This document shows positions 1 to 20,346 of a stretch of DNA of 64,000 nt, piece by piece (the stretch's first letter is position 1; each line of letters begins with the position of its first letter). This stretch comes from Tubulanus polymorphus (Eukaryota > Nemertea > Palaeonemertea > Tubulaniformes > Tubulanidae): positions 16,184,155-16,248,154 of the forward strand of contig NC_134033.1 of assembly GCF_964204645.1 (NCBI RefSeq), in the 5' to 3' direction. The notes under the pieces were generated by a model. The model did no database searches, was not told the DNA's origin, and saw only the letters and a program-made list of their open reading frames with translations. The position numbers and the translations under genes are program-made.

Positions 1-134
1 TCGACATTTTGTTCACCGCATTCTTCCAATTTTGATCTTCAGACTTTCATGACTATTTTTGTTGTTTCGTTGTTCAATATCTTGAAGATTTGTTTCTGAA
101 TGTTACGTTACAATGATCTTAAATCCTTTCTTAC

Positions 135-388
135 CTGTCAGTCGTGGAACGCACTTGTTTACAAATAGTTCTTCGTTGAGTTTACAATTAGCTGGAAATG
201 AAGAAGTACAATTTTTTTCGTTTTTTTACGAGAAGATTGTCATTTTCGGTGACTTCAACGATTCATTAAAACTATTATATTAATATTAATGAAAGATTCC
301 TCATATTTTCAATATATACTAAAATGCTTACATTTTGACTTCGGGAGACATTCCTTGCCAATTCGCTTCATTCCTGGTGGGCACTTAA
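135..388 (-). CDS. Two-cysteine mini-modules at the left edge
   Basis: Exons 332-388 (KCPPGMKRIGKECLPKSK) and 135-191 (NCKLNEELFVNKCVPRLTG) are phase 1-1 with GTAAG donors. No stop is reached, so the gene continues past the left edge of the window. Confidence 0.7.
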
Positions 389-3300
389 CTGAAAGTTAAA
401 CAATTGAAGTGATTTTATGACATAACACGTGAAGGTATTTTTCAGAAATTGGAATGGATACTGAATATTTACGTACTGTGACAAAGAGTGCAAGTCTTAT
501 CTGTAAGAACGATGAAATATAGTGAAATAAAAGAATAAATGAAAGAGAATTCAAATTCTTTTCATATCGAGTTTAAGTTACTCCAATGTCGTACCTCGGC
601 AATAACCCCATTTCCTATCTTTATCGTAGTCCGGAGTTGTGGCGCACCAAGCGTTTTTGGCTTTGATCATGACACAATGAAAGTAATACTTGTTCTTGTA
701 TTTGAATGGGAACGAACAGTATCCTTCTCCTCCGTTACCGTTCATTGTTTTAACGGCTCCTAGTAAAAGTTAATCGATGTTATAGAAACCTTGGGGAATT
801 TCTGCAGATTAAGGATATTAACTGAAAAGGCCGTGTTCCCGTGTTACAGTTTGAGTAACATCATGATCCAAACGACATTCACAAAAATCAAATAAACAAA
901 CGATAGTTTGGGTTGTTTTTTACATACCATGGCAGTATCCCCATTTTTTATCCTTGTTGAAATCATGAGTAACAGCGCACCAGGGTTTTCCAGATTTGCT
1001 ATTTTCAGTGATGCAGTACGACTTAGATACGTTATGGTACATGAATGGAAACGCGCAATTTGCTTTTTTTCCGTTGCCGCCGTATGTCTTGACAACGTCT
1101 GAAAAACGACAAACATATTTTACGGATCCACATCAGTTGGGATGAGTGCTCAGTCAGTGGCGTAGTTGGTACATTTCCGTCCTGGTCGTACGGCTCGGAC
1201 CATAACGCATTGAATATATATTCACATATTACAAAAATCTTACCAGAGAATATAACTGTACAATTATTATTGAACATCCACTGGCCGATCGGACATTTGC
1301 CTCCTGTAACGGAACAAACATAGAACATCATACATAGAACAACATGCAACCGTGCGACGATTCTCTTTTTATTTACCGAACGAGCATCATACATATTCAT
1401 TGTTTTAGATTCCGATGAAATCAAAACTTTCTCTTTTTCTACTTACTAGGTTTACACGCGTTGCCGACCTTGACCTCATTTGTCTTGCACGCAACTGCAG
1501 CTGAAATAGGACAGACGAAAACATATATAGATCTGCTAAATTCTGGTGAGAGGGGTGGGCTATTTGTGGTGGGGTACAATACGGTATTTTGATGATTATA
1601 TACACCCGATCACACCAGTTCCCGGTTAAAATTCAAAAGCGACCGACCGACAGGTGGAGCCAGTCGCCGGTTATATGTCACAGATATTCGGAGGCAACAT
1701 CTACAGGGGTCGGTTCCATATTCAAGACTTAAAACCAAAAGTGGTCTTAAATCTTAAGACTGGTCTTAAGTTGTTAGATTGGCTATAGAACTAAGTTGGT
1801 TTTAGACTGGTCTTAAGTCTAAGCCCTCACTATGGAACCGGACCCAGGAGATGAGGAGTCGGGAAACGATCTATTCTGCTCAATACTGTTAGTTATAGGT
1901 ACGATAAAAGTTTAAAGGTAGAAAAAAAAACCCACGCAAAGTTGTAGCTACAACCATTAGCAAGCCGCGTATGAAAAAGGACACTGTGTCACGCAATACG
2001 ATTGGTTTAATGATAATCACGTGTTAGCAGTAAATAAAAATGGCCGATAGGAAGTTAGTGCGGAGTTTGAATATTAATCAGGTTTCGTGCAAATTAAACC
2101 AAAAACATCGATCGACGTAGCACAGTGTTATTACCGTGGATGCAACTGACTGGAGGGTGTTCACACGGTGCTCCGATCTGAAACGATAGTTCACCGAATA
2201 CCGGATGGATTACCTCTCAGGAAGGGAACGCACTAAGACGTGATTATATCATTGATTGCAGCGATTACAGTGTCCACAGTGTGAGGAGTGTGAGCAGCGT
2301 GCGCGCGCAGATCCTTACCCATTGAAGCGTAGCAGATTTTTCCGTTTTTCAAAACGTAATTCTCCGGACAAAATAATCCGAATTCGGGCATCACTGAAAC
2401 GAATAGTGTGAATGTTATTTATTTATTCAGTTCAATTTTGGTTCTGATGAGTTTTCGATTTCTATAAGAGTAGAGACTGAGACGTGTTAACCGGATGTCA
2501 AACCAGTAAACACGAAGACAGGTGATTATATGTAGGTTTGATATTATTCGAAATGCGAACTTTCAGTGATAGTGCTAGCTTTGTTAGGTAAATGTGTAAA
2601 GTTAACGAAGAAACACTGCCTCCCCCTATAGACAGCCTACTTTTGTTTCTTTATTGAACTTATAGTAGCGAAACTAGTAGCGAAAGCTCGTATTTCTAGT
2701 GGAATTGAGTAACATCATCCTCCCTGGCAGGGATTCGAACCTGATGCATCGCTAGACTCGGTCACGGCACAAACCCTGTCACAGTAGACCGGGTGCGCAG
2801 GTACATGCGCAAGTTCACCGCGCGTTCGATCAGAATGCTCGTTGCATATTCGTTGCAATTTACGGATCTAACTATAAGTGGAAAGAACCCGGGCTAAAAT
2901 GAAACGGGATTTCCAATTGGCTAATAATAACATCATCGTAGCTGCGCAGGTAGCTCCGTACTCGATCTATTGTGGCAGGTTGTCCTACGGTGGCTAGTCT
3001 CGATACCATCAGGTTCGAATCCCTGCCGAGGGAGTACGAGTGAACGTACACAGTATTACCAGTCTTCACGCTACTAATGCAATTAAAGTTAATACGGCGC
3101 TCACACAACGAATATGGTAATTCATTGTTCTTTTATTTAGAGGGCCAATGAAAGACCCGTAATACAAATTTCGATATTGTATATATATATATATATCTGA
3201 AGATCAACCGCATGTGCCGGATTATCTTACCGGTCATTCGGACACATTGTTCCGTCTTGATACGAACGTACCCAGGCTCGCATGGTTTAGCTAAAACAGA

Positions 3301-6300
3301 CAATGATAATATCAATCAATCGATTCGTAATCTCAAGTATTATTTGAAAGTTATTTTCAATATAGTTCCTTCAATCAATTCAAAAAGGTCACGAATTAAT
3401 ACTTGGGTAAACTTACGTTCATCGCGGACGCAAATTCCACCAACAACTGTCTCCCCTTTGGGACACAATTTCACTGGCTTTTGAGGTTCGGGCTTGACGA
3501 GGTTCCCTGAAGATTTGAAATCAGTTAGGAAATAACATCGTTAAGACTGTTACGTAACCCTTCCGTCGTGTCCAAAAAAAAACTTGGCTTTATAACGAAT
3601 ACATGTGGCGTTTTGAAGGATGATATTGCGGATGGTATCAGCTTTCTCCGTGATTTAGGGTTACATTTGGCAGACAGAGGTTTTTTGTGATCACTGATTA
3701 AGATGTACCTTTTAACGCGCCCAGCAGCCAGTCGATGTATTCATTTATATCTTTATGTGAACAGCAAACTGATTGATTTCCAGGCGCAACCATTCCTATA
3801 CTTTTGGAATTTGATTTCGGTCCTGAAAACGAAAACTTCTATCATTAACAATCTAATTTGAATACGGGCGCTGATTGGCTTAAACGCCAAACTCCGGTTA
3901 ATTAATTGGCTCATATTATTATTACTCCGGGCACAATTCCGCAGATTGTATATATGTTTTTTTTTTGCTTTACGTCGTTCCGATATTATTTTTCCAAAGA
4001 CTACACATACTACACTGTTAGCAGCAAGCAGGTTTCAAACCCTCTTGTCACTCAGTACTGATCTTGGTTTCCCAACCCTAATGGATTGTTGATTAAACCT
4101 GGCGACTTGACCGCGGCCTTTGAAGTGTTGCACGCCGTAAGCAACCAGCATGACTTACAGTTGTGAATGGTCAGGCCCCACAATATTTGAAATCATTAGT
4201 GCAATACAAGGCATCCTCTAGAGTGTTAAGATCAAACAGTCAATCACTTCTAGTCATCCCTCGTGTCAATCTAGTCTCTGCGGGTCACAGGGGGTTTTCT
4301 TACTCCGCCCCACTACTTTGGAACTCCTTACCAGATGCAATTAAATCTAGTCCTTCTACTGATGTTTTTAAATCGCAACTTAAAACCCATTTGTTCACTA
4401 AAGCTTTTAACTAATGATGTAAATTGTTTTTTCTGTCTTTACGTTTAAATTGTGTCTTAAAGCCAATATGCATATTTTATATGGATTTTAGGCTCAATAA
4501 ATTATTATTATTATTATTATTGTGAGTATAAACGAGTCAGATTTGACTGGCTCCAGAACTGTAGAACTGTGTCTTTCGGGACCCAATTCTACAGGTCGTG
4601 AGTTAAGATTCGAGTCAGCATTGACTTTTTGAAAATCGACTAAATCTAACATTAATTCAAGACTGGAACTGGACCCAATATTCTACGAGGGTTAGATTTA
4701 ATTGGGAACTAGCTCCAGAACTGCGGAACTGTAGAACCGGATTCTATGAATTACCCGTAGATATGTAGATAATTTCTATTCGTTTCCGTTTCGCTGATTT
4801 CGCAGCCGATTTCGCCTTGTGTTTATTCGACACCTGACCGCTGCCGACCAACACCAGATATCGGCGTGTATATCTTCTTCCTCCGTGATTTACTGCAAAT
4901 CCGTGTTTCCACGCGAATTTGATAGCTCTATCCAGTCGACTAGGCCCTGCGAGTAAGACGTGAATAATATACCGAGCAATTCGAATAGGAAGTTTTTGAA
5001 ACGGTTAGGTAAAGCTGCACCGAGGCATCACTCGTAATGCGTCTCAGTGGAAGCCAAGCGCAAGCTGCTGAATGAGGTGACAGCCATGGTTGACAGCTTA
5101 CGTCCAATATGACGCGTGCATAATATGTCTGACGTCCGAGCATTTACCTACGTGTAGGCTTACGTAGATTTTATTAGGGATCCCCACAGCTGCGAAATGA
5201 GGGATTCCCTTCTCAAACAGGGGTGAATCCAGAAATTTTGGGTTTCGCAATTCTGACAAATCCCTCTAACTGTGGGCGAAGCTAAAGCGAAGTGTATTGT
5301 TAAAAATGTTTAGAAAATTAGAGTAGATCCAGTATTGGGAAGCTAGGTTATTGTTTGGAGGGAAATCGGGATATCCAGTGTAGGGCAGCGGGGTTATTCT
5401 GCGGAAAAGCGTGAGGAAATCCAGTGTAGAGAACAGGGGCTACTTTGCAGACGGGAATAAAGAACTCCAGTGCAGGGAGGTAGTGTCCTTACCGCCGTTA
5501 TATTTGATATTATCCAATGATTTCACGGCTCTATCTTTGTTAGTGTTTCTCTTAAACCAGCCGTAAACAGTGGTTTTACTGTGGTAAGTCAATATAGCCA
5601 CAGATACATTCCTCGGGTTGATGTACAATTTCGTCAGGATGATCCGCACGAATTCTTTAGCCGCTTCGAACCCGGGTTTTCCCATTTTTGATGACGCGTC
5701 AATCATGAACATGACGTCTGCCTTTTCTCTAACTGAAGATAGTCAAATTTTCGAAATATTGGTTCTGATTCAATAAACCATTTTACAGTTACTCCGTCAT
5801 TTTGTTGGGGTAACATTGTCCTTATTGCTGGGTCATTTTTTTCTCTTTTTTAAGAACTATTTATAATATTTGAATATAAAAGATCTATTCTTACCTCCTT
5901 GTGCAGCCTGAATACACTTATTTCCGATTCTGAAGTATCCAGGTTTGCATTTGCCTAAATAAAACCGATTTCAGGGAATATTAGAAAATCTCATGATTCA
6001 GTATATATAGTAAAGCATACTTGGATGTTCTTGTGTAATTTAATTGATCTATTTACCCGGTCTTTGACATTTCGAGTTTTGCGAGACGAAACCTTTCGGA
6101 CACCTTATCTCGGCTGTAAATAGAGAAAGCGTCAAAACTCAAAATGCCACAAAATGGATGGACATATCGTTATTATTTTCTAATGATTTCAGGATTTTGC
6201 TGTGATTTCATCACGGCTTAGATTTAATGCTAGCCTGAAAGCGTCTTAGTTCTATAGCCAATTCAACGATATGAGTCCAGTCTCGAGATTTAAGACTATC

Positions 6301-9300
6301 TTATCGAGGTCCAGAAGAAATGGGATTTCTCAGATAAAAAGCCAAGTCAAAGGCTATTAGCGCAGGGCCCACTCTCGGTATGAGATATTTTCTAAGAAAT
6401 ATGGAATTCCCGAAACGATGAATGTCAAATTTACGGGTTTTAATGATCTTTGTCGTGGCGAAAAGGGCAACCTCCGTGGGACCGAGACCATTCCTTGAAT
6501 CTGCCCCTGCGTTTACCATGACTATCCTACGATGGTTTCAGCAATAGTAAAGTTACCTTTACAATAGCCCCACAGTTTGTCCTGATCATAGTATTTGGTA
6601 GTAGCGCACCACGGCCGTTTAGCGTTCAGCAAAATACAAGTATCATAACTTTTCTCTTTATAAACGAAAGGAAAGATGCACAGCTTCCCGCCTCCAGTTC
6701 CTTCGACTGTTTTTATTTTCACTACAAAAAAAAGCGTGACAAGAAAATCAACGTCTAATTTTCAAAACATTGAAATTGAAGACAATGAACTTACGGGGGG
6801 GGGGGGTTACCGGCGGGCGCACACCAGATAGCTAACAGAACACTCACGCACCTGTTCTTTCGTTCGTCACTTTAATACATTTCGAGCCTTCTTTTTTGTA
6901 ATGAACAGGACATTGACCTCTATCTATACAGATATAAACAGACGCGTTAAGAATGTCACTAATTCAAGTCCTGTACCGTCTTGTGTCGCAGTGGAACTGA
7001 GGTTATCAACCAGAGATGATACGATACGTACTGTAGATACGATGACAGATTCCATTTCGTCTTTCAAACCCTTTTGGACACGTGGTCGGTGTACCTATAA
7101 ATATATTGTACATTAATGTTGCATTTCTACTAAATTGTAATATGTTTAACTGATCTGCTTCGTGTTATTCAGCGGGTAGACGGGTGGTTGGTGCAAAGTT
7201 TAAAAGGGTAGACGGGTGGTTGGTGCAAAGTTTAAAAAGGAATGTGATCTAGTTTCGAAAGGAAGCCAATTCTAAAACGTTATGGCAATTTGTAGCCAGC
7301 TCTATAGTCAGTCAGTTCTAGCCAGTTCTAATCAGTACTAATCGGCTAGCCGTGAGAACCAGTTCTCAGTTCTAACTGAATCTTGCCGGTTCTAATCAGC
7401 CAGCTGTAAGGACTAGTACCAGTTAGATCTAGTTAGTTCTATTTTCAAATTCAGACACCAACCGCGGTAACCGAGGATCGATCGAATATCGTTTTTTTTC
7501 TCCGAGAATTATAGTTGAAATTTAATTGTCGGAGAACACCTGTTGGGATCGGAATTAGGAATTCATTAGTAGCGATCGGAACGAACCAATCGATTCGGTT
7601 CTCTGCATCTAGCCGTAGTACATCCTCGCTTGTCAGGGTTTGAAGCTCACCACGCCGACACAAACCCATCATTGGTCTGTTACACCGCCCAAAATTTCTT
7701 GAGCGGACAGGTTGTCGCTCAGCGGTCACCAGTCTATATATCTAGCCAATCAGGTACGTTGTACTGATCTGCCGGCGAAAAATAAACGCTATTGATCGGC
7801 TTAATACATAGACTGGTGGCCGCTGACTGGCAACCTGTCCAAGAATTTTTGGTGGTGTTATACACCAATGAAGGGTTTGTGGCCAGGCAACCAAACCCTG
7901 GCAAGCGAGGATGCCCGGAGTATACGGTTCCAACACTAACCCATTATTTTACTGTACAACCACTGGCTGGATCGTTTCACCTTGACCATAACGAAATTTC
8001 CGGTTCCGGTAACAGCCTTCATTTCACGTTTGTTCACCTTGTCGTTGGCGACCCAGTAAATTTCAATTCTTTTCTTCCTCAATTCTCGTCCGATTCTCGA
8101 TGAAGCTAACATGTTGTTCGAACTGCCAGCTCCCAGTACCACTATTACCTGCAATACGTTAAGTAAAACAGCATCAATATTTTTTGTACAGTGGAACTGC
8201 GTTACAGCGAACTTCTGGGCACCAGAAAATCTGTTCGTTATAACCGATAGTTCTATATACAGCCGAACCTCGTTACAACAAACTTCAGGAGACTAGAAAA
8301 TCTGTTCGTTATAACCGATAGTTCTATATACAGCCGAACCTGTTACAACAAACTTCAGGAGACTAGAAAATCTGTTCGTTATAACCGATAGTTCGCTATA
8401 ACCAGTATGAAATAATCACAATTTTCGTTAAGCGATAGTTCGTTGGATTCGGGATGAAATTGAAATAAATTGTCTTAAAAACTCTTTCGGGATGAAATTG
8501 AAATTCTTTCCAAGATAAATAGTTAGTGAAACTTTGCCCTAATTGACAGACACCGAAGTAGGTATCTACATCGATCAGTTTGTTCTCTCAGTCCCCCTAC
8601 CTTTCGAGCAGATTTTTTCCGGGCTCTATGATGCCTAACTAGTTGATGTTCCGCTTCTACCAGTCCGATAGCTAAATTAGACGGGTTGCCGACCTGTTTT
8701 ATATCGGTTATCGTGCGGAATACTTCCGCCTTCTGGACGGGTTTCCGCTTCAAGTCGAGTAAAACGCGCGCCCGTTCGTCGTAAGTGACCACTGCGACGT
8801 GAGCGCGAGCGTCGTCGATTCTGATTCCGTTCAAAATTCGAAGCAGTAAAAGTTTAATGTTAGTCAATTTGCGGGCGTTCATGCGTTTAGAAACATCGAC
8901 CAGCACGACCAGGTCAACCTTAACCAAATCTGATAGAGAAATGTAACGATATTAATCGGGTGTTTTTACATGACGAAGTAGATTAAAAATAAAGGTCTTT
9001 TCAAGTAAACGTGTCGATAGGTCGTACTAGGAAGGTTAACTGATTTTTATCAAATATCGTGATCATGATAAAATCAGTTTACCTAAACAGTACCTGTATT
9101 CATTATCAATTTGATAATCTCATGGCTTAGATAATCATGGATTTGATAATCTTATGGCTCTTAAGACCAGTCTAAGGCCATCTTCGTTCTATAGCCAATC
9201 AAAGAACCCAAGACCACGTTTGAATTTTTTAGGTCAAGACTATACAACTAGGCCAAGGTGAACACGGCTCGTTTACAAGATTCTAATTAGTCTCACCTCC

Positions 9301-12300
9301 TCCTGGGTCGAGTTTGATGCACGTTTTTCCCACTCCGTAATATCCTGGTTGACAATCTGTAACGAGAAGGATCTATAGACGTCACTTTCATCATTCGACT
9401 GGAAAACCTGCTGACTTTGAATCGACTTATTGAGAATTCTACCGACCTTTTTTGATACATTTTCTATCCCCGTTTAGCATTCCCGGCGGGCAGGACATCA
9501 CAGCTACAACAAGAAACAAATATGTTGCGATGGAAATTGGAAAAAGGCGAATCTCGAATAAAAACGTTTTTCTCATTAGGATTTGAAAGTTTGATAAGAC
9601 AACTTCCAAATAAAAAAAACCGAGGAAATTAGTTTCGACTTGGACAATTAACAAATTTTGCAATAAGAAATTATGCTTTTAAGACTTCAGAGCCGCCACC
9701 ATGACCGAAACCAGTCCGTCTCATCGGGGAACTTACCCTGGCAATAGCCCCATTTGCCGTCCGTGTCGTAGTCCGAAGTGGTGGCGCACCACACGTAAGA
9801 TGAACCAATCGCCGTGCACGCTTTATAGATTTGACCTTTATATCGAAAGGGAAATTTACAAAACGCGCCGGCGCCGTTACCCCCGAATGTTTTGATTAAT
9901 TCTACAAAGAATAAATCAAGAAATGAATGGGGAACAATGAACAGCAAGATAGGATACAGAAAATGTGTATAAATTTGAATATGATAAAGGAGGACTCGAA
10001 GGATTACAATCTCAGGTCGATCTATGTGCGCCAGTTATAATCTGTAAAATGAAGGGGTCACAAACGGTTGCGGAAGATGACGTCATTCCACTTACCAACT
10101 CGACGGACAATCGATAAGGCGCATTTCTGATCGCCTTGATCTACAAAACCAGGCGGACATGGAACACCATTCTTTACTGTAAATCAAATTAGACTCTAAT
10201 TAGTATCGTCCACTCTTGGGCAGAGGGGGTTTTCCTGTCGAAATCTAGACCCAGTTCAAATAGAAATGGCTAAAATTCAGATGTCGTATTAACCCATTAA
10301 GTGCTCTTGTACAGAGATGTTAATTTTATCTCTGAGCTAGGTGTCCACCGTTGTGAGTTGGGATTTGAACTCCCGGAGTCAAACTACTTGACCTCGAATC
10401 AATTTGGCTTTAGAGATGTTATTAACCATGAATTGTGGAACCAGATCCTTGAGACCAAATTAGCAGTCAATGAACCGTCCATGAATTTAAAGCTTTTGTT
10501 GAAACTTACGTTTTTTCTTGACTTTGATACATTTGGTTCCCTGTTGTATGAATCCTACTGGGCAGCCTTTTACATGTGCTAAAATTTAGAAATAAATATC
10601 CTGTTAATTCACCTGAGAAGTTAACTAGTATATCTGTCCCGTGGATGGATATCCTCTCAGCAAAAACGTCACGCCTGAAGTCAATCAATCAAATAAATAA
10701 TGGATAATCACGCTTATTTCTAGATCAAAGATCCACCAGTATTTTGTTATTCTAACTAATTAAGCCTCTTATCCGGGTCTCTGCTTACCGTGACAGACAA
10801 GTTTCACGAATTTTCCCTTTTTCAGATGCAGCGTGTCGGTGCTTTTCACGTGTATGGTCTCGTCTGCAAGTCGATTCAGTTTGGCGCGCACGAGATTCTT
10901 GCCGATACCGACGACGATCGACAGAACGTGTAAAGACTCGTCGTGAAGCGTCAGGTTTCCGAACAGATCCGAGTGACTGGTGATCAGTACGATGATATTG
11001 GGCACCCCGGCCCGGGCGCCGTTACCGGGCAGGAATACCTGCTGATGCACGGATTTCATCGCGGATTCTAAATTTCGAGTATTAAACTTCGTGCGTTTCA
11101 GATGTTTTGTAACTTCTTTGACAGCATCAACGTTAGTAGAATCCTAGAACAAAATGCGACATGCGCTGTATTTTATGCTGTTCATTGAGCCCTAGTCGTA
11201 TAACATTTTTTACTTTTAGTATCTATGTTCTTGGTGGTAGGCCTTTATGAATCATACAATTTCGTTATGACACTAGTATTCCTGGAGATGACTGCAATAG
11301 ATTTTAGTAGCAATCGCCAGGCGAATTAAGTGGTCCAGAGATTCGTTGACCTGTACCGGGTAACAAGGGTCTACAGTAAAGTTGACCGGTACCGAGGAAG
11401 GAGGAGTCTACTGTAGAGTTGACCTGTACCGGGTAACAAGGGTCTACAGTAAAGTTGACCGGTACCGAGGAAGGAGGAGTCTACTGTAGAGTTGACCTGT
11501 ACCGGGTAACAAGGGTCTACAGTAAAGTTGACCGGTACCGAGGAAGGAGGAGTCTGTAGAGTTGACCGGTATCGAGTATGGAGGAGTCTACTGTTTTTGA
11601 TCAGAACTATTTAAAACGTGGATTATGCTGTAGAGTTGACCAGTGGAGTTAACCATCAAGACGACAAGTACCGAGTTAGGAAGAATCAGGGAAAATGACG
11701 GTGTTTACCGAATGGATATAGTTAGAAAGTTTAAACGGATCGGGGTCTATGCTGTAGACCGGTTACCTTTAGTTTGAGAAGCACTTTCGCCCGTTTACTG
11801 AAACTGACAACAGCCACTCGATTGTGATCTAAACCGATTCTGAGATCGGACAGCACATCTTCGATGAACTGACCGACGGCTTTGAGGTCCTGTGTCACCA
11901 TCCCGCTGGACGTGTCGATCAGAAATATCAAATCACTGGCCATTTTACACCCTGAAATCCAACAGTACACAACGTACAATCAAACGCGCATCATCTGACG
12001 TCTTAATTTCCCAATGCGTAGGAGATCATTCTCTAATGGGAAGCTACAACACAATCCGAGTTTGGATGGTGAACCCTTATGGGTAGACCCTCCCCAACGT
12101 CAACCAAACCAAACTTCAGACGATAGGATCGAATGAGTCCTCATTCAGATAAGTTTTCAACAAACGATGAATTTGATGAACGATTTCTTATCATCTTAGA
12201 TAACCAATCTAAAGGTTTCCAGAAATGTATAAGATACTATTATGTTATTCATTATCTTCTACACTGAAAATAATCAGTTTATCTGCCATAATCATGAATG

Positions 12301-14045
12301 GGGTAACCGCACCGCTACTGTGGCAATCGAGGATTCCACTTCTGGCAGGCGAGGATCCACCAGGTTCGCTAGTAGTATGACTTGTTCTACATTTAAAACC
12401 GAATGATTTTTTCTTAAATGAATAAATCATTAATGAAATCTGTATCGATATCTGAGTAGAAAATATGAATTTATTAGAAATTCAGTACAAAGCTTATGAA
12501 CTAAATTTGACAACGAAATTATGAATATATATAAAAAGATTCATTTCCATTTTTACCTTTTTGTTTATTTTGCTCTGTTTCTGTCACGAATCGACCGGTG
12601 TAGATGGCTTCAACCTGCATCGATAAAATCTCAAAAACCACAGAATTAGGCAGATAGACAAAGTAGCAAGTTCAATCTTACGAGCCCGGCCTTGCCCTTC
12701 GTGATGTCGTCCACGTGAAGGCAACGTCTTGACGCGCGGACTATTTGTTTGTATCTTTTGCGACGAAAAACTATCACCGAAGCGAATATTTGACAACGCA
12801 AGCTTGATAATCGTAGAGTTAAAAGATGGTATAACAGTTTGAGCAGAATAACATCTAAACTAGGTCACGATGGCCACTTATTTCATCAAGTCGAATTTAA
12901 CTCAGTCTGGGACGTAAATATTCGGAACTGTCATATAACTTGTAATGAAGATTGATTTTGACGTATAGTTTTCGAATGGAAAATCTGCCTAATTCGTCGT
13001 TCAGCTCTTGAGAGATTATCGGTGATGTTTTTATTTTATCAAGCCAAACTACGCGCGGTGAATGAATGAAATAAGCGGCCGGCAGATATACGGAGAAATC
13101 AGGGGGAGATGGAAGGTGGGGGTGGGGGTAACCGGGTATTGGGTGACTGGCGACCGCGGTGTGTATACCCACGACGTTACGATTTTCGGAACCAAAAATA
13201 CATCGGTAAAAGCAAGACGAAAAAGGATTTAGAAGAACAAAGAACTTGGAACCGTAGTCTACAGGAACGCAAGTTACAAGTGCAGCGTTCGGGATTAGTT
13301 GAAATCCGAAGAAAAGTTGTCACCAGTTACAGGTACATAGTAATCGTAATTGATATGTCTGTTCTACAAAGAAAATTGGTATTAATTTGAATGAATTTGC
13401 ACAGTTATTGCTCAACTGATAACAAACATGTGCCAAAGTCTCTAACAAGTCAGTGTAGCAGTGGTCGAGTGGTTCGGTCACTGGTCTCGCCCCTTGCTCG
13501 TGGTGGTTTCTAGTACCGGTAGCTTGTGGCATTCTTGACCCCTGATCGCTTTTATCTATAGATAGATTGATACCCAAATCGGCTGAAATAAAAATTCGTC
13601 ACTGATTCTCTACGAAAGTCTGAAAAAGAATTGTCTTTTAGATTTTAATAGAAATGATTTAAATGGAAAATGTTTTTCCCGCGACTAGAACGTGTGGACG
13701 CGTACGCATTGGTCGCGTTTAGTGCCCATTTGAAATTCCGTTATCGATCAGCAGGGCTCTATACTGGAGGGGCAGTAGAATCTATGTTGAAGGGGCAGTA
13801 GACTCTATGCTGAAGGGGCAGTAGGGGCAGTAGGCTCTATGTTGAAGGGGTAGTAGACTCTATGTTGCTGCTGATTGATGCTCATGATAAATGTCACCGA
13901 ACGCTTGTGATTCTTCTACATCAATTAAGTTCTAACTTGTTTTCACTTACTCTTATCTTTCTCATCTGAGGCTGCAACAACAGTGGTTATAACAACGACC
14001 AGTAGACCGATGGTGAACAGTCCCCTCATCGCGCCCTCTATACGC
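135..14045 (-). CDS. Large secreted VWA / fibronectin type II / two-cysteine-module protein (partial, 3' end off window)
   Basis: Hand-built model of 26 coding exons on the minus strand: 13951-14029 (signal peptide), 12682-12770, 12557-12614, 11767-11951, 10789-11143, 10510-10578, 10096-10176, 9737-9901, 9447-9503, 9297-9356, 8601-8929, 7953-8148, 6557-6721, 6057-6113, 5895-5954, 5493-5732, 3709-3822, 3417-3506, 3231-3290, 2319-2393, 1447-1494, 1244-1303, 928-1098, 595-759, 332-388 and 135-191. All have GT-AG borders and the frame closes at each junction. Module order is signal, VWA1, mini x2, FN2, mini x2, VWA2, FN2, mini x2, VWA3 (incomplete), mini x5, FN2 x2, mini x2, then off the left edge. 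Almost all module borders are phase 1, the classic class 1-1 shuffled exon. An extracellular adhesion or matrix role is inferred from the modules; I do not recognise a named orthologue. Exon 3709-3822 is the least certain. Confidence 0.8.
595..1098 (-). CDS. Two tandem fibronectin type II domains
   Basis: Exons 928-1098 (CAFPFMYHNVSKSYC, WCAVTHDFNKDKKWGYC) and 595-759 (YCSFPFKYKNKYYFHC, WCATTPDYDKDRKWGYC) are phase 1-1 FN2 exons lying side by side. Each keeps four cysteines and the closing W-G-Y-C. Tandem FN2 pairs occur in gelatin-binding proteins; function here is not known. Confidence 0.88.
1244..3506 (-). CDS. Five consecutive two-cysteine mini-modules
   Basis: Exons 3417-3506 (LCPKGETVVGGICVRDE), 3231-3290 (CEPGYVRIKTEQCVRM), 2319-2393 (CPENYVLKNGKICYAS), 1447-1494 (CKTNEVKVGNACKP) and 1244-1303 (KCPIGQWMFNNNCTVIF) are all phase 1-1, 48-90 nt, each with two cysteines. 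This is the longest run of the module in the window. The acceptor of 1447-1494 is tandem (CAGCTGCAG), so use of the outer site would add two residues in frame. Confidence 0.72.
1705..1846. mobile_element. Foldback element (GGTTCCATA ends)
   Basis: The ends are imperfect inverted repeats: GGGTCGGTTCCATA at the left and TATGGAACCGGACCC at the right. The interior repeats TCTTAAGACTGGTCTTAAG and a GATTGGCTATAGAAC core. Related interior motifs recur near 6230-6300, 9160-9240, 22820-23060 and 56640-56880. It looks like a non-autonomous DNA transposon with no coding capacity. Confidence 0.6.
2719..3034. mobile_element. Foldback element whose ends carry a tRNA B-box-like motif, copy 1
   Basis: The left end carries TCCCTGGCAGGGATTCGAAC and the right end its near reverse complement, with GGTTCGAATCC at 3012-3022. 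That 11-mer matches the RNA polymerase III B-box consensus found in tRNA genes. About 250 bp of related interior separates the ends. Related copies lie near 21500-21838 and 51041-51330, with an end fragment at 22240-22270. It lies in an intron of the VWA/FN2 gene. Confidence 0.62.
3709..3822 (-). CDS. Possible linker exon or end of VWA3
   Basis: A 114-nt phase 1-1 open exon with a good acceptor (TTTTCAG) and a GTACAT donor. It encodes SIGMVAPGNQSVCC then INEYIDWLLGALKG, ending in a predicted amphipathic helix that could be the last VWA helix. It joins exon 3417-3506 in frame. No clear homology was recognised, so it could be a linker. Confidence 0.5.
4140..4525 (+). mobile_element. 3' end of a CR1/L2-type LINE retrotransposon
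   Basis: The plus-strand reading frame ending at 4414 (stop) encodes the typical C-terminus of a non-LTR reverse transcriptase ORF, with QYLKSLVQY, VIPRVNLVSAGHRGFS and LLWNSLPDAIKS followed by LKTHLFTKAFN. A short 3' UTR and an (ATT)n tail at about 4500-4520 follow, as expected of a CR1/L2-like LINE. The copy is 5' truncated and lies antisense in the intron between exons 5493-5732 and 3709-3822 of the VWA/FN2 gene. Confidence 0.85.
5493..5732 (-). CDS. VWA domain 3, first part
   Basis: This 240-nt exon encodes KADVMFMIDASSKMGK, then NVSVAILTYHSKTTVYGW and a helix ending DNIKYNGG. The metal-site motif is again degenerate (DASSK). The exon ends in phase 1 (AACGGCG|GTAAGG), unlike the phase-0 breaks in VWA1 and VWA2, so the second half of this domain is organised differently or is missing. 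The only downstream candidate I can link in frame is exon 3709-3822, which lacks an obvious beta-4 strand. Confidence 0.72.
5895..6113 (-). CDS. Two-cysteine mini-modules upstream of VWA3
   Basis: Exons 6057-6113 (RCPKGFVSQNSKCQRP) and 5895-5954 (CKPGYFRIGNKCIQAAQGG) are phase 1-1. They match the positions and lengths of exons 9447-9503 and 9297-9356 in the preceding block. Confidence 0.72.
6557..6721 (-). CDS. Fibronectin type II domain (second)
   Basis: A 165-nt phase 1-1 exon encodes CIFPFVYKEKSYDTC and WCATTKYYDQDKLWGYC, with all four FN2 cysteines and the aromatic core. It directly follows VWA2 and precedes two more mini-modules, the same order as the preceding block. Flanking splice signals are good. 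Confidence 0.88.
7174..7240. repeat. Short tandem duplication of about 32 bp
   Basis: The unit containing GGTAGACGGGTGGTTGGTGC occurs twice in succession. Degenerate AGCCAGTTCTAATCAGT repeats follow to about 7440. No coding content. Confidence 0.7.
7621..7913. mobile_element. Foldback element (CATCCTCGCTTG ends), copy 1
   Basis: The left end CATCCTCGCTTGTCAGGGTT is mirrored by AACCCTGGCAAGCGAGGATG at the right end. The interior holds a palindromic pair around CCAATCAGGTACGTTGTAC. Related copies are at 14136-14350 and 29442-29736. No protein is encoded; it is probably a non-autonomous DNA element. Confidence 0.7.
7953..8929 (-). CDS. VWA domain 2 (two exons)
   Basis: Exons 8601-8929 and 7953-8148 join in phase 0, as in VWA1. 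They encode VDLVVLVDVSKRM, then HVAVVTYDERARVLLDLKR, and in the second exon VIVVLGAGSSNNML and further alpha/beta elements. The metal-site motif is degenerate: DVSKR has Arg at the second serine position, and the acidic residue after beta-4 is missing (LGAGSS). The 3' end uses a donor A|GTAAAA at 7953, chosen because only this phase joins the next FN2 exon; reading on would meet a stop codon within a few residues. Confidence 0.78.
8191..8410. repeat. Partly amplified pogo/Tigger-type end repeats
   Basis: Two to three direct copies of a block containing AAAATCTGTTCGTTATAACC and ATAGTTCTATATACAGCCGA. The sequence is related to the complete element at 53054-53209 and the fragment near 49217. It looks like a decayed non-autonomous element that has been tandemly duplicated. 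Confidence 0.6.
9297..9503 (-). CDS. Two-cysteine mini-modules upstream of VWA2
   Basis: Exons 9447-9503 (CPPGMLNGDRKCIKK) and 9297-9356 (CQPGYYGVGKTCIKLDPGG) are phase 1-1 and 57-60 nt long. Each holds exactly two cysteines. The FN2, mini, mini, VWA order seen here repeats at 6557-5493, implying duplication of a multi-exon block. Confidence 0.75.
9737..9901 (-). CDS. Fibronectin type II domain (first from the N-terminus)
   Basis: A single 165-nt phase 1-1 exon encodes an FN2 domain with four cysteines and the family signatures CKFPFRYKG, WCATTSDYDTDGKWGYC. FN2 domains bind collagen/gelatin or glycans in other proteins, so a matrix-binding role is a reasonable inference. Acceptor and donor are strong (TTTGTAG and G|GTAAGT). 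Exons 595-759 and 6557-6721 have exactly the same length. Confidence 0.9.
10096..10578 (-). CDS. Two-cysteine mini-modules between VWA1 and the first FN2
   Basis: Exons 10510-10578 and 10096-10176, both phase 1-1, each encode about 23-27 residues with just two cysteines. They contain CPVGFIQQGTKCIKV and CPPGFVDQGDQKCAL. The spacing C-P-x-G-[FY]-x(5-8)-K-C-[IVA] recurs through the gene, so this is a repeated module that probably forms one disulfide-closed loop. I do not recognise a named domain; it resembles a fragment of an EGF-type or TNFR-type cysteine loop. Confidence 0.75.
10789..11951 (-). CDS. VWA domain 1 (two exons)
   Basis: Exons 11767-11951 and 10789-11143, joined in phase 0, encode a von Willebrand factor A domain. 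Strand beta-1 ends LIFLIDTSSGM, followed by a helix, then NRVAVVSFSKRAKVLLKL and, in the second exon, NIIVLITSHSDLFGN and a closing helix. The usual metal-binding motif DxSxS reads DTSSG, so the second serine is displaced, and the usual Thr-Asp-Gly after beta-4 is replaced by TSHSD. The fold is clear; classical metal-dependent ligand binding is doubtful. A roughly 73-bp tandem repeat occupies the intervening intron. Confidence 0.82.
11335..11600. repeat. Minisatellite of about 73 bp
   Basis: About three direct copies of a unit that includes GTTGACCTGTACCGGGTAAC and GTTGACCGGTACCGAGGAAG, followed by a degenerate copy. It lies in the intron that splits VWA1. Confidence 0.8.
12315..12375. repeat. 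Dispersed repeat (GGCAATCGAGGATTCC family), copy 1
   Basis: The block GGCAATCGAGGATTCCAC... GGCGAGGATCCACCAGG matches segments at 54173-54230, 59605-59660 and, partly, 59809-59860 and 32158-32185. No inverted ends or coding potential were recognised, so its class is unknown. Confidence 0.6.
13453..13520 (+). other. tRNA-like (A-box-like) sequence, decayed
   Basis: AGTGGTCGAGTGGTTCGGTC resembles the D-arm/A-box of a serine-type tRNA, with a degenerate B-box about 45 bases later (GGTGGTTTCTAGTACC). No cloverleaf can be closed. It may be a relic of a tRNA-derived SINE or a tRNA pseudogene. Confidence 0.3.
13755..13865. repeat. Short minisatellite of about 30 bp
   Basis: Repeats of GGGGCAGTAGACTCTATGYTGAA, about four degenerate copies. 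It lies just downstream of the signal-peptide exon of the VWA/FN2 gene, inside its first coding intron. Confidence 0.7.
13951..14029 (-). CDS. Signal-peptide exon of the VWA/FN2 gene
   Basis: The start ATG is followed by Arg-Gly, then a hydrophobic core (LFTIGLLVVVITTVVAA) and an acidic/basic stretch (SDEKDK), a textbook secretory signal. The exon has 26 codons plus one base and ends in a GTAAGT donor. The phase-1 end joins exon 12682-12770, whose product is very basic (RRKRY, a possible furin-type site) and contains one Cys. That exon is followed by 12557-12614, which leads into the first VWA domain. Confidence 0.8.
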
Positions 14046-14867: not shown

Positions 14868-15990
14868 GATCACGATTGATAAAACACTCTGGATCCGTGT
14901 TGAAGCTAAGTAGAGAGAATCCCACAATAATAACGAAAAAAACACAGTCCGAAAATGTAACCGAAGCTGGTATTCGCACTATCGTATCATATAATTACCC
15001 TTTGGTTTGCTTCCCTTAAATCTATTTTAGCGTGCAGCTGTTTCTGTACGTTAATTTTCATTTAGTTTGTATCATCTCTGATTACTTGAATTAGTCTCTT
15101 TGTCTCTGGATTGTATATAATATCTCATAATTTTTGTTGTAACTCATTATTTCTGAAGATGACTATTAGGATAAAGTCGAAACGTTGAATAAACTACACT
15201 AGCTCAAGGAATACAGTATTCCAGAAGATGACTATTAGGATAAACTCGAAACGTTGAATAAACTACACTAGCTCAAGGAATACAGTATTCCTGAAGATGA
15301 CTATTAGGATAAAGTCGAAACGTTGAATACACTACACTTGCTCAAGGAATGCAGTATTCCTGAAGATGACTATTAGGATATAGTCGAAACGTTGAATAAA
15401 CTACACTAGCTCAAGGAATACAGTATTCCTGAAGATGACTATTAGGATAAAGTCGAAACGTTGAATACACTACACTTGCTCAAGGAATGCAGTATTCCTG
15501 AAGATGACTTAAGTCGAAACGTTGAATAAACTACATTAGCTCAAGGAAAACAGTATTCCTGAAGATGACTATTAGGATAAAGTCGAAACGTTGAATAAAC
15601 TACACTAGCTCAAGGAATACAGTATTCCTGAAGATGACTATCAGGATATAATCGAAACGTTGAATAAACTATTCACTAGTTCAAGGAATACAGTATTCCT
15701 GAAGATGACTAAAGTCGAAACGTTGAATAAACTACACTAGTTCAAGGAATACAGTATTCCTGAAGATGACTATTAGGATATAATCGAAACGTTGAATAAA
15801 CTATTCACTAGTTCAAGGAATACAGTATTCCTGAAGATGACTAAGGTCGAAACGTCACATAAACTACACTAGCTCAAGGAATACAGTATTCCTGAAGATG
15901 ACTAAAGTCGAAACGTTGAATAAACTACTAAAAGCATCAGTTACATTTTCGGACTGTGTTTTTCTCGTTATTATTGTAGGATTCTCTCTA
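14868..15990. mobile_element. Inverted-repeat element carrying an internal minisatellite
   Basis: About 50-bp inverted repeats at 14911-14963 and 15938-15990 (TAGAGAGAATCC, AACACAGTCCGAAAATGTAA and their reverse complements) bracket a tandem array. A further 43 bp at 14868-14910 also belongs to the family, because it is matched next to a related copy at 52917-53031. No transposase is present, so the element is non-autonomous. Its architecture resembles other invertebrate elements with a central tandem array, but I cannot assign a named family. Confidence 0.75.
15153..15930 (+). repeat. Minisatellite, 69-bp unit, about 12 copies
   Basis: The unit runs CCTGAAGATGACTATTAGGA, then AAAGTCGAAACGTTGAATAA and CACTAGCTCAAGGAATACAG. 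Several copies lack the block TATTAGGATA, giving 59-60-bp variants. Each junction contains GGAATACAGTATTCC, a 6-bp stem with a 3-base loop. Isolated related units are seen near 31835 and 44790. Confidence 0.9.
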
Positions 15991-18078: not shown

Positions 18079-19071
18079 TCAATCGCATATAACACGATCT
18101 ACAGGCGCGTCTTTCGATCCGACCGAATACCTCCACATACTCAAAGCTCGATTACCCAGTTTAAGGGTTTCGCTCATGATTCCATCTTTTAAAGTTCTAG
18201 TGACGAACGGAAAGTGTCCGTGTAACGCCGCGCAGTCGGTATGTACGACCCTAAAAGTACGAAACGTCCTGTGCGACACGTGGTGAGATGTACATTTCTT
18301 GTCGATATCCCCGTAACGATCTAGTAATACTTTTCTCCACTTGCGAGGCGCCGGTAACATCATTCCCATAAAAGGAACTTTAACGAGTGGGAAAATATCG
18401 GAGTTGTTCCTTCGTACCCACGGCTGAAATGTTGAATCTTTTATATATTCATCTATATGCACATAAGGCCATATATCGACAAGTGGCCAATGCGAGTACG
18501 AAAAAGATAATTTCCACGGGCGACTTTTAAACATTTTTATTTTCATATGTTTTACTTGCGGATCGTTGTCGTCGAAGACTTTCCTAATCTTCAATAAATC
18601 CTTTTTTGACAACTGAACGTCGAAATCGTCGTCCCAGGGCACCGGTCCGTGGTGACGATAGGCGCCGATCAACGAACCGGAAAACAGAAAATACTTGATA
18701 TTCAATCTGCGCATCAACGCATCGAACTGTCTCACCAGTAATCTGTATTGCGCTTTCCATTTTGGCTGGAGCTCCCTCGCGACGAATTTCATACGCAACC
18801 GATTCGACAGAGAGGAGCTCGATGTCTTCGCCCCCTCGATATTATCCTCGCGAAATTCGTAATAACTGTTCACGGAATGCACACTCTTCTTCGCCAGCGG
18901 TAGATACTTTAGTTCACCGGCTCGTCGGAATGTTTGAAAATTCACGAACAATGCGGAAATCGCGATGACGGAACAAACTCCGAGTAAACACAAACAAATT
19001 CTCAAACTCGAGACCATCCCAAAATACAGAGAATACTTGATTTTAACAGTTCTTTCACAATTTGGTTCCAT
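18079..19071 (-). CDS. LicD-family type II membrane protein (fukutin/FKRP-related superfamily)
   Basis: An intronless 330-residue ORF. Residues about 16-44 form one uncleaved hydrophobic segment after a short basic N-terminus, giving a type II Golgi-like topology. The core reads LFSGSLIGAYRHHGPVPWDD followed by DFDV (Asp cluster 147-151), the LicD nucleotidyltransferase-fold motif that coordinates the metal-nucleotide. LVDIWPYV and the VPFMGMMLPAPRKW stretch near residue 233 also fit the family. LicD relatives transfer phosphocholine or ribitol-phosphate to glycans; the substrate here is unknown. It is much closer in length to the small invertebrate LicD proteins (such as C. elegans W02B3.4) than to fukutin. 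The start is the first Met upstream of the membrane segment. It is transcribed away from the GPCR at 20347. Confidence 0.85.
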   Translation of the reverse strand: MEPNCERTVKIKYSLYFGMVSSLRICLCLLGVCSVIAISALFVNFQTFRRAGELKYLPLAKKSVHSVNSYYEFREDNIEGAKTSSSSLSNRLRMKFVARELQPKWKAQYRLLVRQFDALMRRLNIKYFLFSGSLIGAYRHHGPVPWDDDFDVQLSKKDLLKIRKVFDDNDPQVKHMKIKMFKSRPWKLSFSYSHWPLVDIWPYVHIDEYIKDSTFQPWVRRNNSDIFPLVKVPFMGMMLPAPRKWRKVLLDRYGDIDKKCTSHHVSHRTFRTFRVVHTDCAALHGHFPFVTRTLKDGIMSETLKLGNRALSMWRYSVGSKDAPVDRVICD

Positions 19072-19870: not shown

Positions 19871-20346
19871 CGACCGGTGAGGGCGCATTTTCATTGGACA
19901 TTCTACTACGTGTATAATACACTTCAATCGCTCTAGTCACAAATTGATTTACATATACATCGTATAAAATACTTCGGTGCCAAAGCCAAAATGTCTGCAT
20001 CATAGATTAAAAATCAATGTTGCTTGTCTCACTAACTTTGCCCCCCCCCCCCCCTACTATATTCAATCCGCCAGCTCTTACACAATACACTGTACTGACA
20101 ATGAGAAGTAGACAACAAGATTGTGTGCAACATATTGGGAAACTCATATTCGCGTCTACCGGATAACAATGAAGCAAACAATGAAGTTAGATAAAAATTT
20201 TGATAACAACAGGGAGCATCGATTGCTAAACGCCAGATTCGGACTTGAATTTCAATAGAGGCATAGCTCAACTGCTGTCACCAGAACGCGATCAGAATAC
20301 ACACATATTTCTATAACGGCAGTTTCTGAATGCGGCGAAGCAGAGG

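Follow-up and report, generated by a model that had tools for sequence, protein, structure and literature searches.

Modules that spread by exon shuffling are usually ~40 residues long or longer and contain two or three disulfides. Several VWA domains within one matrix protein are familiar from collagen VI alpha 3 and the matrilins, FN2 domains are found in MMP-2, MMP-9 and fibronectin, and a hairpin pinned by a single disulfide is, to our knowledge, known as a free unit only from the insect GBP/ENF peptides. One review likens the GBP motif to the C-terminal portion of EGF (PMC6439351). The mussel byssus protein PTMP1, which is secreted, carries two VWA domains and has a mass of ~49 kDa, is a reported collagen binder, and FN2 is not named in the excerpt of its description used here (PMC4754843). 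In schistosomes, micro-exon genes (MEG) encode secreted proteins in rows of short exons of 3–81 bp (PMC10526429).

The window analyzed here is a stretch of 64 000 nucleotides from the nemertean Tubulanus polymorphus (contig NC_134033.1, hereafter C9, positions 16184155–16248154), set within a searched genome of 267.8 Mb in 77 contigs. It contains part of a gene that shares features with all of these systems. Like PTMP1, the product looks secreted and bears VWA domains, the first of which matches the PTMP1 structure 4cn8 with an E-value of 4e-11 in a PDB search, but it combines more VWA domains with FN2. In contrast to collagen VI and the matrilins, the part encoded in the window has no collagen domain and includes, in addition, FN2 domains and two-cysteine mini-modules (m), and in contrast to MMP-2 and MMP-9, it has no protease domain. 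The preliminary description of this DNA knew of no protein with such an architecture, and none was found in the open-licence literature. We consider it fairly probable that the gene product is a secreted protein of giant size, destined for the extracellular matrix or for adhesion, in which half-EGF hairpins serve as shuffled spacers.

Architecture of the gene

The gene model was built from exons picked by eye, with consensus-like splice sites and with phase agreement as one criterion. Splicing of 28 exons on the minus strand, from position 14029 to position 135 of the window, yields one stop-free frame of 1121 amino acids (Table 1). The exons located previously are all present on this strand, and the earlier view of a modular, secreted-looking gene composed of FN2, VWA and mini-modules is borne out by the signal peptide-like first exon and by the Pfam matches of the protein to VWA (PF00092; 232.5 bits in 3 stretches, cut-off 23.8, E 4.8e-69) and fn2 (PF00040; 204.3 bits in 4 stretches, cut-off 22.2, E 1.8e-61). 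Two other VWA models match as well, and the Pfam scan of the window protein detected neither collagen nor EGF nor protease domains. Lysine accounts for 12% of the residues of this part of the protein.

The order of the modules is signal peptide, (VWA-m-m-FN2-m-m)x2, VWA, five m, FN2-FN2 and three m. Phase 1 is used by 25 of the 27 modelled introns, as expected from the earlier statement that nearly all modules are phase 1-1, and the remaining two are phase-0 introns inside VWA1 and VWA2. There are 16 mini-exons, rather than the 13 counted originally, namely 15 with two cysteines 10–11 residues apart and one 8-aa C-x2-C exon. The block FN2-m-m-VWA, which was thought to occur twice in full, indeed has two copies, one consisting of FN2-1, m3, m4 and the two exons of VWA2, the other of FN2-2, m7, m8 and the three exons of VWA3, but these end at 7941 and 3709 (not 5493), respectively. 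Moreover, both FN2 domains are also preceded by VWA-m-m, so that VWA-m-m-FN2-m-m is the better description of the unit. Additional exons are possible between the signal-peptide exon (13951) and VWA1 (11951).

Table 1. Exons of the modelled gene, in order of transcription
Feature	Position in window	Strand	Basis
Exon 1 (start ATG, signal peptide-like MRGLFTIGLLVVVITTVVAASDEKDK; phase-1 donor)	13951..14029	-	spliced model, read from sequence
VWA1 exon a	11767..11951	-	spliced model, Pfam VWA
VWA1 exon b (joined to exon a across a phase-0 intron)	10789..11143	-	spliced model, Pfam VWA
m1	10510..10578	-	spliced model, mini-module profile
m2	10096..10176	-	spliced model, mini-module profile
FN2-1	9737..9901	-	spliced model, Pfam fn2
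m3	9447..9503	-	spliced model, mini-module profile
m4	9297..9356	-	spliced model, mini-module profile
VWA2 exon a	8601..8929	-	spliced model, Pfam VWA
VWA2 exon b	7941..8148	-	spliced model, Pfam VWA
m5	7032..7094	-	spliced model, mini-module profile
m6	6852..6923	-	spliced model, mini-module profile
FN2-2	6557..6721	-	spliced model, Pfam fn2
m7	6057..6113	-	spliced model, mini-module profile
m8	5895..5954	-	spliced model, mini-module profile
VWA3 exon a	5493..5732	-	spliced model, Pfam VWA
VWA3 exon b	4755..4946	-	spliced model, Pfam VWA
VWA3 exon c	3709..3822	-	spliced model
m9 (predicted beta-hairpin)	3417..3506	-	spliced model, AlphaFold
m10	3231..3290	-	spliced model, mini-module profile
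m11	2319..2393	-	spliced model, mini-module profile
m12, divergent (C-K-T-N)	1447..1500	-	spliced model, mini-module profile
m13	1244..1303	-	spliced model, mini-module profile
FN2-3	928..1098	-	spliced model, Pfam fn2
FN2-4	595..759	-	spliced model, Pfam fn2
m14, 8-aa C-x2-C exon, least certain of the model	477..500	-	splice sites, phase only
m15	332..388	-	spliced model, mini-module profile
m16; gene runs on past left edge (C9:16184154 downwards)	135..191	-	spliced model, continuation on same strand

Judging from the sequence, the window holds just the 5' part of a larger gene that extends ~19 kb beyond the left edge. The related exons that had been noticed up to this edge continue beyond it on the same strand, and the continuation was modelled in part from C9:16184155 to 16164846. 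It starts with the fifth and sixth FN2 domains (C9:16184017-16183853 and 16183708 to about 16183545, minus strand), followed by two lysine-rich exons, one of 611 aa (C9:16183201-16181366, 25.5% Lys) and the other of 1431 aa (C9:16180699-16176404, 22.6% Lys). In these exons, 22 of 22 and 54 of 55 cysteines, respectively, belong to 11 and 27 two-cysteine units with spacing like that of the mini-modules and with no introns between the units. The reverse strands of both exons also carry long open frames, probably a consequence of composition. Farther left are more mini-exons and Lys/Glu/Pro-rich stretches, then VWA4 (C9:16169194-16168320) and VWA5 (beginning at 16166845), and finally the last exon, which starts at C9:16165942 and encodes a Pro-rich tail with a stop near 16164846. 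Window and continuation together contain five VWA and six FN2 domains. It is very unlikely that the window exons are split over two or more genes: a 2-kb intron separates the signal peptide from VWA1, and the mini-exon array beyond the gene (see below) has a separate last exon, as might be expected of such a split, but every junction fits in phase, the kinds of modules alternate across the window, and an unsystematic reading turned up neither a second start exon nor another last exon ahead of C9:16165942. Upstream of the gene, the window contains an intronless 312-aa frame of the LicD family (18079-19017, minus strand; PF04991, 70.2 bits) and repeats with TTCAGGAATACTGTATTCCTTGA (15150-15950).

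The relatives of the VWA and FN2 domains in the PDB are collagen VI (the top match), gelatinases, fibronectin, VWF and PTMP1, with FN2 scores of up to 46.9 bits per domain. Four cysteines are invariant in all four window FN2 domains. In three of them, cysteines 2 and 3 enclose a loop shorter by two residues than its counterpart in MMP-2 and MMP-9, and hence ligand binding may differ. An AlphaFold model of FN2 from the four-sequence alignment was poor (mean pLDDT 61.7). The full metal site motif of VWA domains, MIDAS, is DxSxS...T...D. Comparison by eye with this motif showed it to be incomplete in all of VWA1-5: two MIDAS residues are missing in each of VWA1 (DTSSG), VWA2 (DVSKR), VWA3 (DASSK) and VWA5 (DTSRY), and one in VWA4, which retains DSSDS and has N in place of the last Asp. 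This incompleteness makes metal-dependent binding unlikely in most of the VWA domains of the gene.

Mini-exons in the gene and in the adjoining array

Next to the gene, between C9:16162889 and 16144667, a best-chain rule delineates an array of 56 mini-exons, among which the doubtful rows GCSKGFPLKCQISI, GDKCPLDKITACL and DVMCSDWHTPVPHSHNCH were retained. Under a candidate rule that demanded multiples of 3, 54 of these exons are 39–66 nt long and two are 96 nt long; 32 are exactly 48 nt, with cysteines at residues 4 and 15. The spliced array comprises 58 units, with a loop of 10 residues in 45 of the 58 and a linker of 4 in 46 of the 57, so that the regular period, C-x10-C-x4, is 16 residues. 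A separate last exon, Pro/Ala-rich in its tail and closed by a stop, follows the array, and the candidate start exon at C9:16163094 is weak; the array could thus be a second gene, or else provide the window gene with an alternative 3' end. Two tRNA-Cys genes are located on the opposite strand between the last exon of the window gene and the array (L010 23-98 and L029 9350-9422). Altogether, there are more than 100 copies of the mini-module around the locus: the window contributes 15, the two long exons 11 and 27, and the array 58.

The abundance of mini-exons on one strand can be gleaned from an untrained rule applied to both strands (acceptor, donor, phase 1-1, two cysteines 7–12 apart). Over the 60 kb that extend from the array up to window position 20000, this rule yields 80 candidates on the minus strand and 2 on the plus strand; the respective counts are 15 and 1 in window 1-14029, 3 and 1 in window 14030-64000, and 1 and 0 in the 20 kb past the array. 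The possibility that mini-modules are a general feature of FN2 genes was rejected because 18 other 10-kb FN2-bearing stretches (16 places) yield 8 candidates on one strand and 7 on the other. The pattern C-P/K/E-x-G-x(4,9)-C has 11 matches in the whole window on both strands, 10 of these in the gene on its strand. A mini-module profile gives 94 matches on the minus strand and none on the plus strand in 80 kb, compared with 2, at score 14, in a 224-kb control, but its training set consisted of minus-strand hits from this very region, and the case for the strand bias therefore rests on the untrained rule instead. Genome-wide, the mini-module pattern has 83 matches and its reversed control 32; C9:16146248-16173236 accounts for 19 of the former, and many of the remaining ones are copies of two repeats. 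These two repeated elements, with CAGGGTCAGTCTGTCCATGAGGATAC and TAGGGACACCATGCCCGTATGGTTAC, are scattered over many contigs.

The array does not appear to be a satellite-DNA artifact, an explanation that was considered and rejected: the long self-matches lie in two introns (16155808-16154728 and 16144652-16144222), the sole self-match that touches two exons is 55 bases long, and third codon positions vary. In the 32 equal 48-nt exons, the first and second codon positions of Cys, Pro and Gly are conserved and the third positions are variable, and the introns carry little information away from the splice sites (0.16 bits on average at -60 to -31). This combination reflects selection on the protein. 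Modules of the array resemble one another strongly at lags 4, 6 and 8 (equalled in 0, 0 and 1 of 500 shuffles, respectively), less so at lags 2 (29 of 500) and 9 (56 of 500) and not at lags 1, 3, 5, 7 and 10; the peaks suggest that modules were probably copied in even-numbered sets.

Affinities of the mini-module

AlphaFold, given m9 (30 aa) and an alignment of the 14 other window modules, predicts a beta-hairpin with strands at residues 19-22 and 25-28 (mean pLDDT 75.8, rising by blocks from 60 to 80 at residues 11-20 and 87 at residues 21-30; pTM low, 0.31). When the window modules were compared with Pfam in six groups, none scored above a cut-off, the best matches below it being EGF_MSP1_1 (19.7 bits), TIL, EB, CPW_WPC and cEGF, and in NCBIfam there were solely matches far below cut-off. 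The whole tandem array, however, reaches 33.8 bits with cEGF (PF12662, cut-off 26.6) as the sum of weak matches, compared with at most 15.3 bits for the window modules. A match to a known domain such as an EGF or TNFR subdomain had been named as grounds for abandoning the novel module, and this has come about in part: the array as a whole passes the cEGF cut-off, but the window modules remain below every Pfam cut-off. The notion of an undescribed unit with no known kin is not supported, given the cEGF score of the array and the predicted hairpin. Plain EGF, TNFR or TIL identity was rejected as well, the window modules being under the cut-offs and having two cysteines only. The six cysteines and three disulfides of EGF are not found in the mini-modules, most of which have two cysteines, and scans of the window model, both long exons and the array revealed no full EGF domain.

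In PDB searches, the first match of a 15-row profile of window modules is the insect Stress-response Peptide-1 (25 residues, E 0.005), and that of a 63-row profile is an insulin-like receptor (2.6e-5), not EGF, with VWF, Stress-response Peptide-1 (0.093), a metalloproteinase inhibitor, C-type lectins, TNFR21, thrombomodulin and R-spondin following at E-values from 0.07 to 10. Other hairpins, those of TIL, EB, VWF, TNFR21, the insulin-like receptor and C-type lectin, score against the mini-modules in the same range as the EGF-like ones, and this spread of Pfam and PDB matches indicates that a hairpin of this type occurs in many cysteine-rich domains. The most likely reading is, nevertheless, that the mini-module is a stand-alone half-EGF resembling the C-terminal hairpin of EGF. 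It shares with cEGF the pattern C-P-x-G-[YF]-x(n)-C, the ~10-residue loop and the hairpin, but lacks the first and second disulfides, stands alone and mostly occupies its own exon. Descent from EGF, rather than convergence, may be suggested, short of proof, by one array exon, VCSCPEGYMKKDNKCI, that retains the C-x-C-P-x-G-Y found where EGF or TIL domains end. Under this scenario, the C-terminal hairpin of EGF would have turned into an independent exon-shuffling unit, a one-disulfide beta-hairpin, after the other two disulfides had been lost.

The same array exon and the cEGF match of the array would also fit an ordinary EGF/VWA matrix family, in which the mini-modules are decayed EGF domains and the gene is a product of mere matrilin-like shuffling. 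We regard this as unlikely because the mini-module forms its own symmetric exon in most copies, 32 of the 56 array exons share the 48-nt length, conservation is seen at the protein level, and a full EGF is absent from the window model, the long exons and the array. Weak matches to TIL (PF01826, at most 18.0 bits) and Antistasin (20.4 bits) raise the possibility of a protease-inhibitor array of one of these types, but all are below the cut-offs (24.5 and 21.2, respectively), and the module has two cysteines, compared with ten in the TIL domain, which makes an inhibitor array extremely unlikely.

The insect GBP/ENF and stress-response peptides (6ee9) resemble the mini-modules as free-standing one-disulfide hairpins. 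A multi-copy precursor from which such cytokine-type peptides are cut would be in line with Stress-response Peptide-1 topping the 15-row search, and the GBP consensus, C-x2-G-x(4,6)-G-x(1,2)-C-[KR] as given in PMC6439351, fits 6 of the 15 window modules and 31 of the 56 array modules when the last K/R is omitted. The known peptides, however, are released and end in C-[KR], whereas here tens of copies are fused: the full consensus fits 0 of 15 window and 2 of 56 array modules, and a dibasic pair is present in 0 of the 57 linkers of the array, where such sites were examined. These counts render a released-peptide role of the mini-modules unlikely. Given also that Stress-response Peptide-1 drops to E 0.093 with the 63-row profile and that fused VWA and FN2 domains are not expected in such a precursor, the GBP/ENF scenario seems extremely unlikely.

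Another possibility is that symmetric micro-exons are skipped combinatorially, generating a diversity of secreted variants as in the schistosome MEG. The mini-exons of both the gene and the array were modelled as phase 1-1, and the schistosome exons are comparably short (PMC10526429), but the C-P-x-G-Y core is conserved and symmetric exons are expected from any exon shuffling. Most exons here, furthermore, correspond to a two-cysteine unit, and the likeness is one of exon layout; a diversity generator appears quite unlikely.

A putative matrix scaffold, its history and its genomic relatives

The function suggested as most likely by the domain content is that of a secreted collagen-binding matrix or adhesive scaffold. 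The FN2 and VWA domains would attach to collagen, or to a matrix polymer like it, at several points simultaneously, the VWA domains without metal because none has a full MIDAS. The hairpins would act as short spacers, each pinned by a disulfide and, in the array, highly regular, and the lysine-rich stretches as charged linkers and possible cross-linking sites. Duplicating or skipping a symmetric exon leaves the reading frame intact, and this would account for the growth of the arrays. A stronger version of the proposal, to which we give an even chance, is that the mini-module is an independent mobile shuffling module of 16–25 residues, among the smallest in animals, that partners with VWA at four or more loci and has been amplified here to more than 100 copies, building, with FN2 and lysine-rich repeats, an undescribed class of giant matrix proteins. 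If so, a 16-residue one-disulfide unit lowers the size limit for an exon-shuffling module, with more than 50 consecutive exon-by-exon repeats lying next door to a gene where the same unit is fused to VWA and FN2. The array would also offer materials research a natural, very regular disulfide-pinned repeat with a 16-residue period, and the gene would unite FN2, VWA and a potentially cross-linkable lysine-rich scaffold within a single protein.

Assembly by shuffling and block duplication, as proposed originally, is supported in part. The modules that follow FN2 correspond between the two blocks (m3/m7 score 35, m4/m8 34; 2 of 24 orders reach the observed score sum), but those that follow VWA do not (11.5 and 9.5), and VWA2 and VWA3 are only 24.9% identical, with introns at different places. 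The six pairs among VWA1, 2, 3 and 5 show 23–29% identity. In a tree of 56 FN2 domains, with partial ones excluded, which is poorly resolved and has unsettled bootstrap values, the six FN2 domains of the gene require 4 changes against a shuffled mean of 5.8 (5 of 500 shuffles as low); they are thus somewhat clustered but do not form one group, and the starred branches force at least 2 changes. Block duplication in the window gene is likely, then, but would be old.

The genome contains 65 FN2 matches and at least 126 VWA matches. At three loci, C9:11755001-11759000, C1:2418001-2421500 and C1:29495001-29498500, the untrained rule finds 6, 9 and 7 mini-exon candidates, respectively, all on the strand of the nearby VWA exon and 0 on the other, compared with 0 candidates at each of three places where the pattern hit lies away from VWA. 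These loci were chosen because a genome-wide hit of the mini-module pattern lay near a VWA exon, so they are not a blind sample and give no measure of frequency; with this proviso, they point to a family of VWA and mini-module genes of which the window gene would be the member with FN2. Two other places were noted by eye. An FN2 cluster at C9:9297849-9314615 combines FN2 with PAN/Apple-like exons and one or two mini-like exons, and exons at C8:11039001-11042000 contain many C-P-x-G-Y/F-Y-C repeats reminiscent of GCC2/GCC3.
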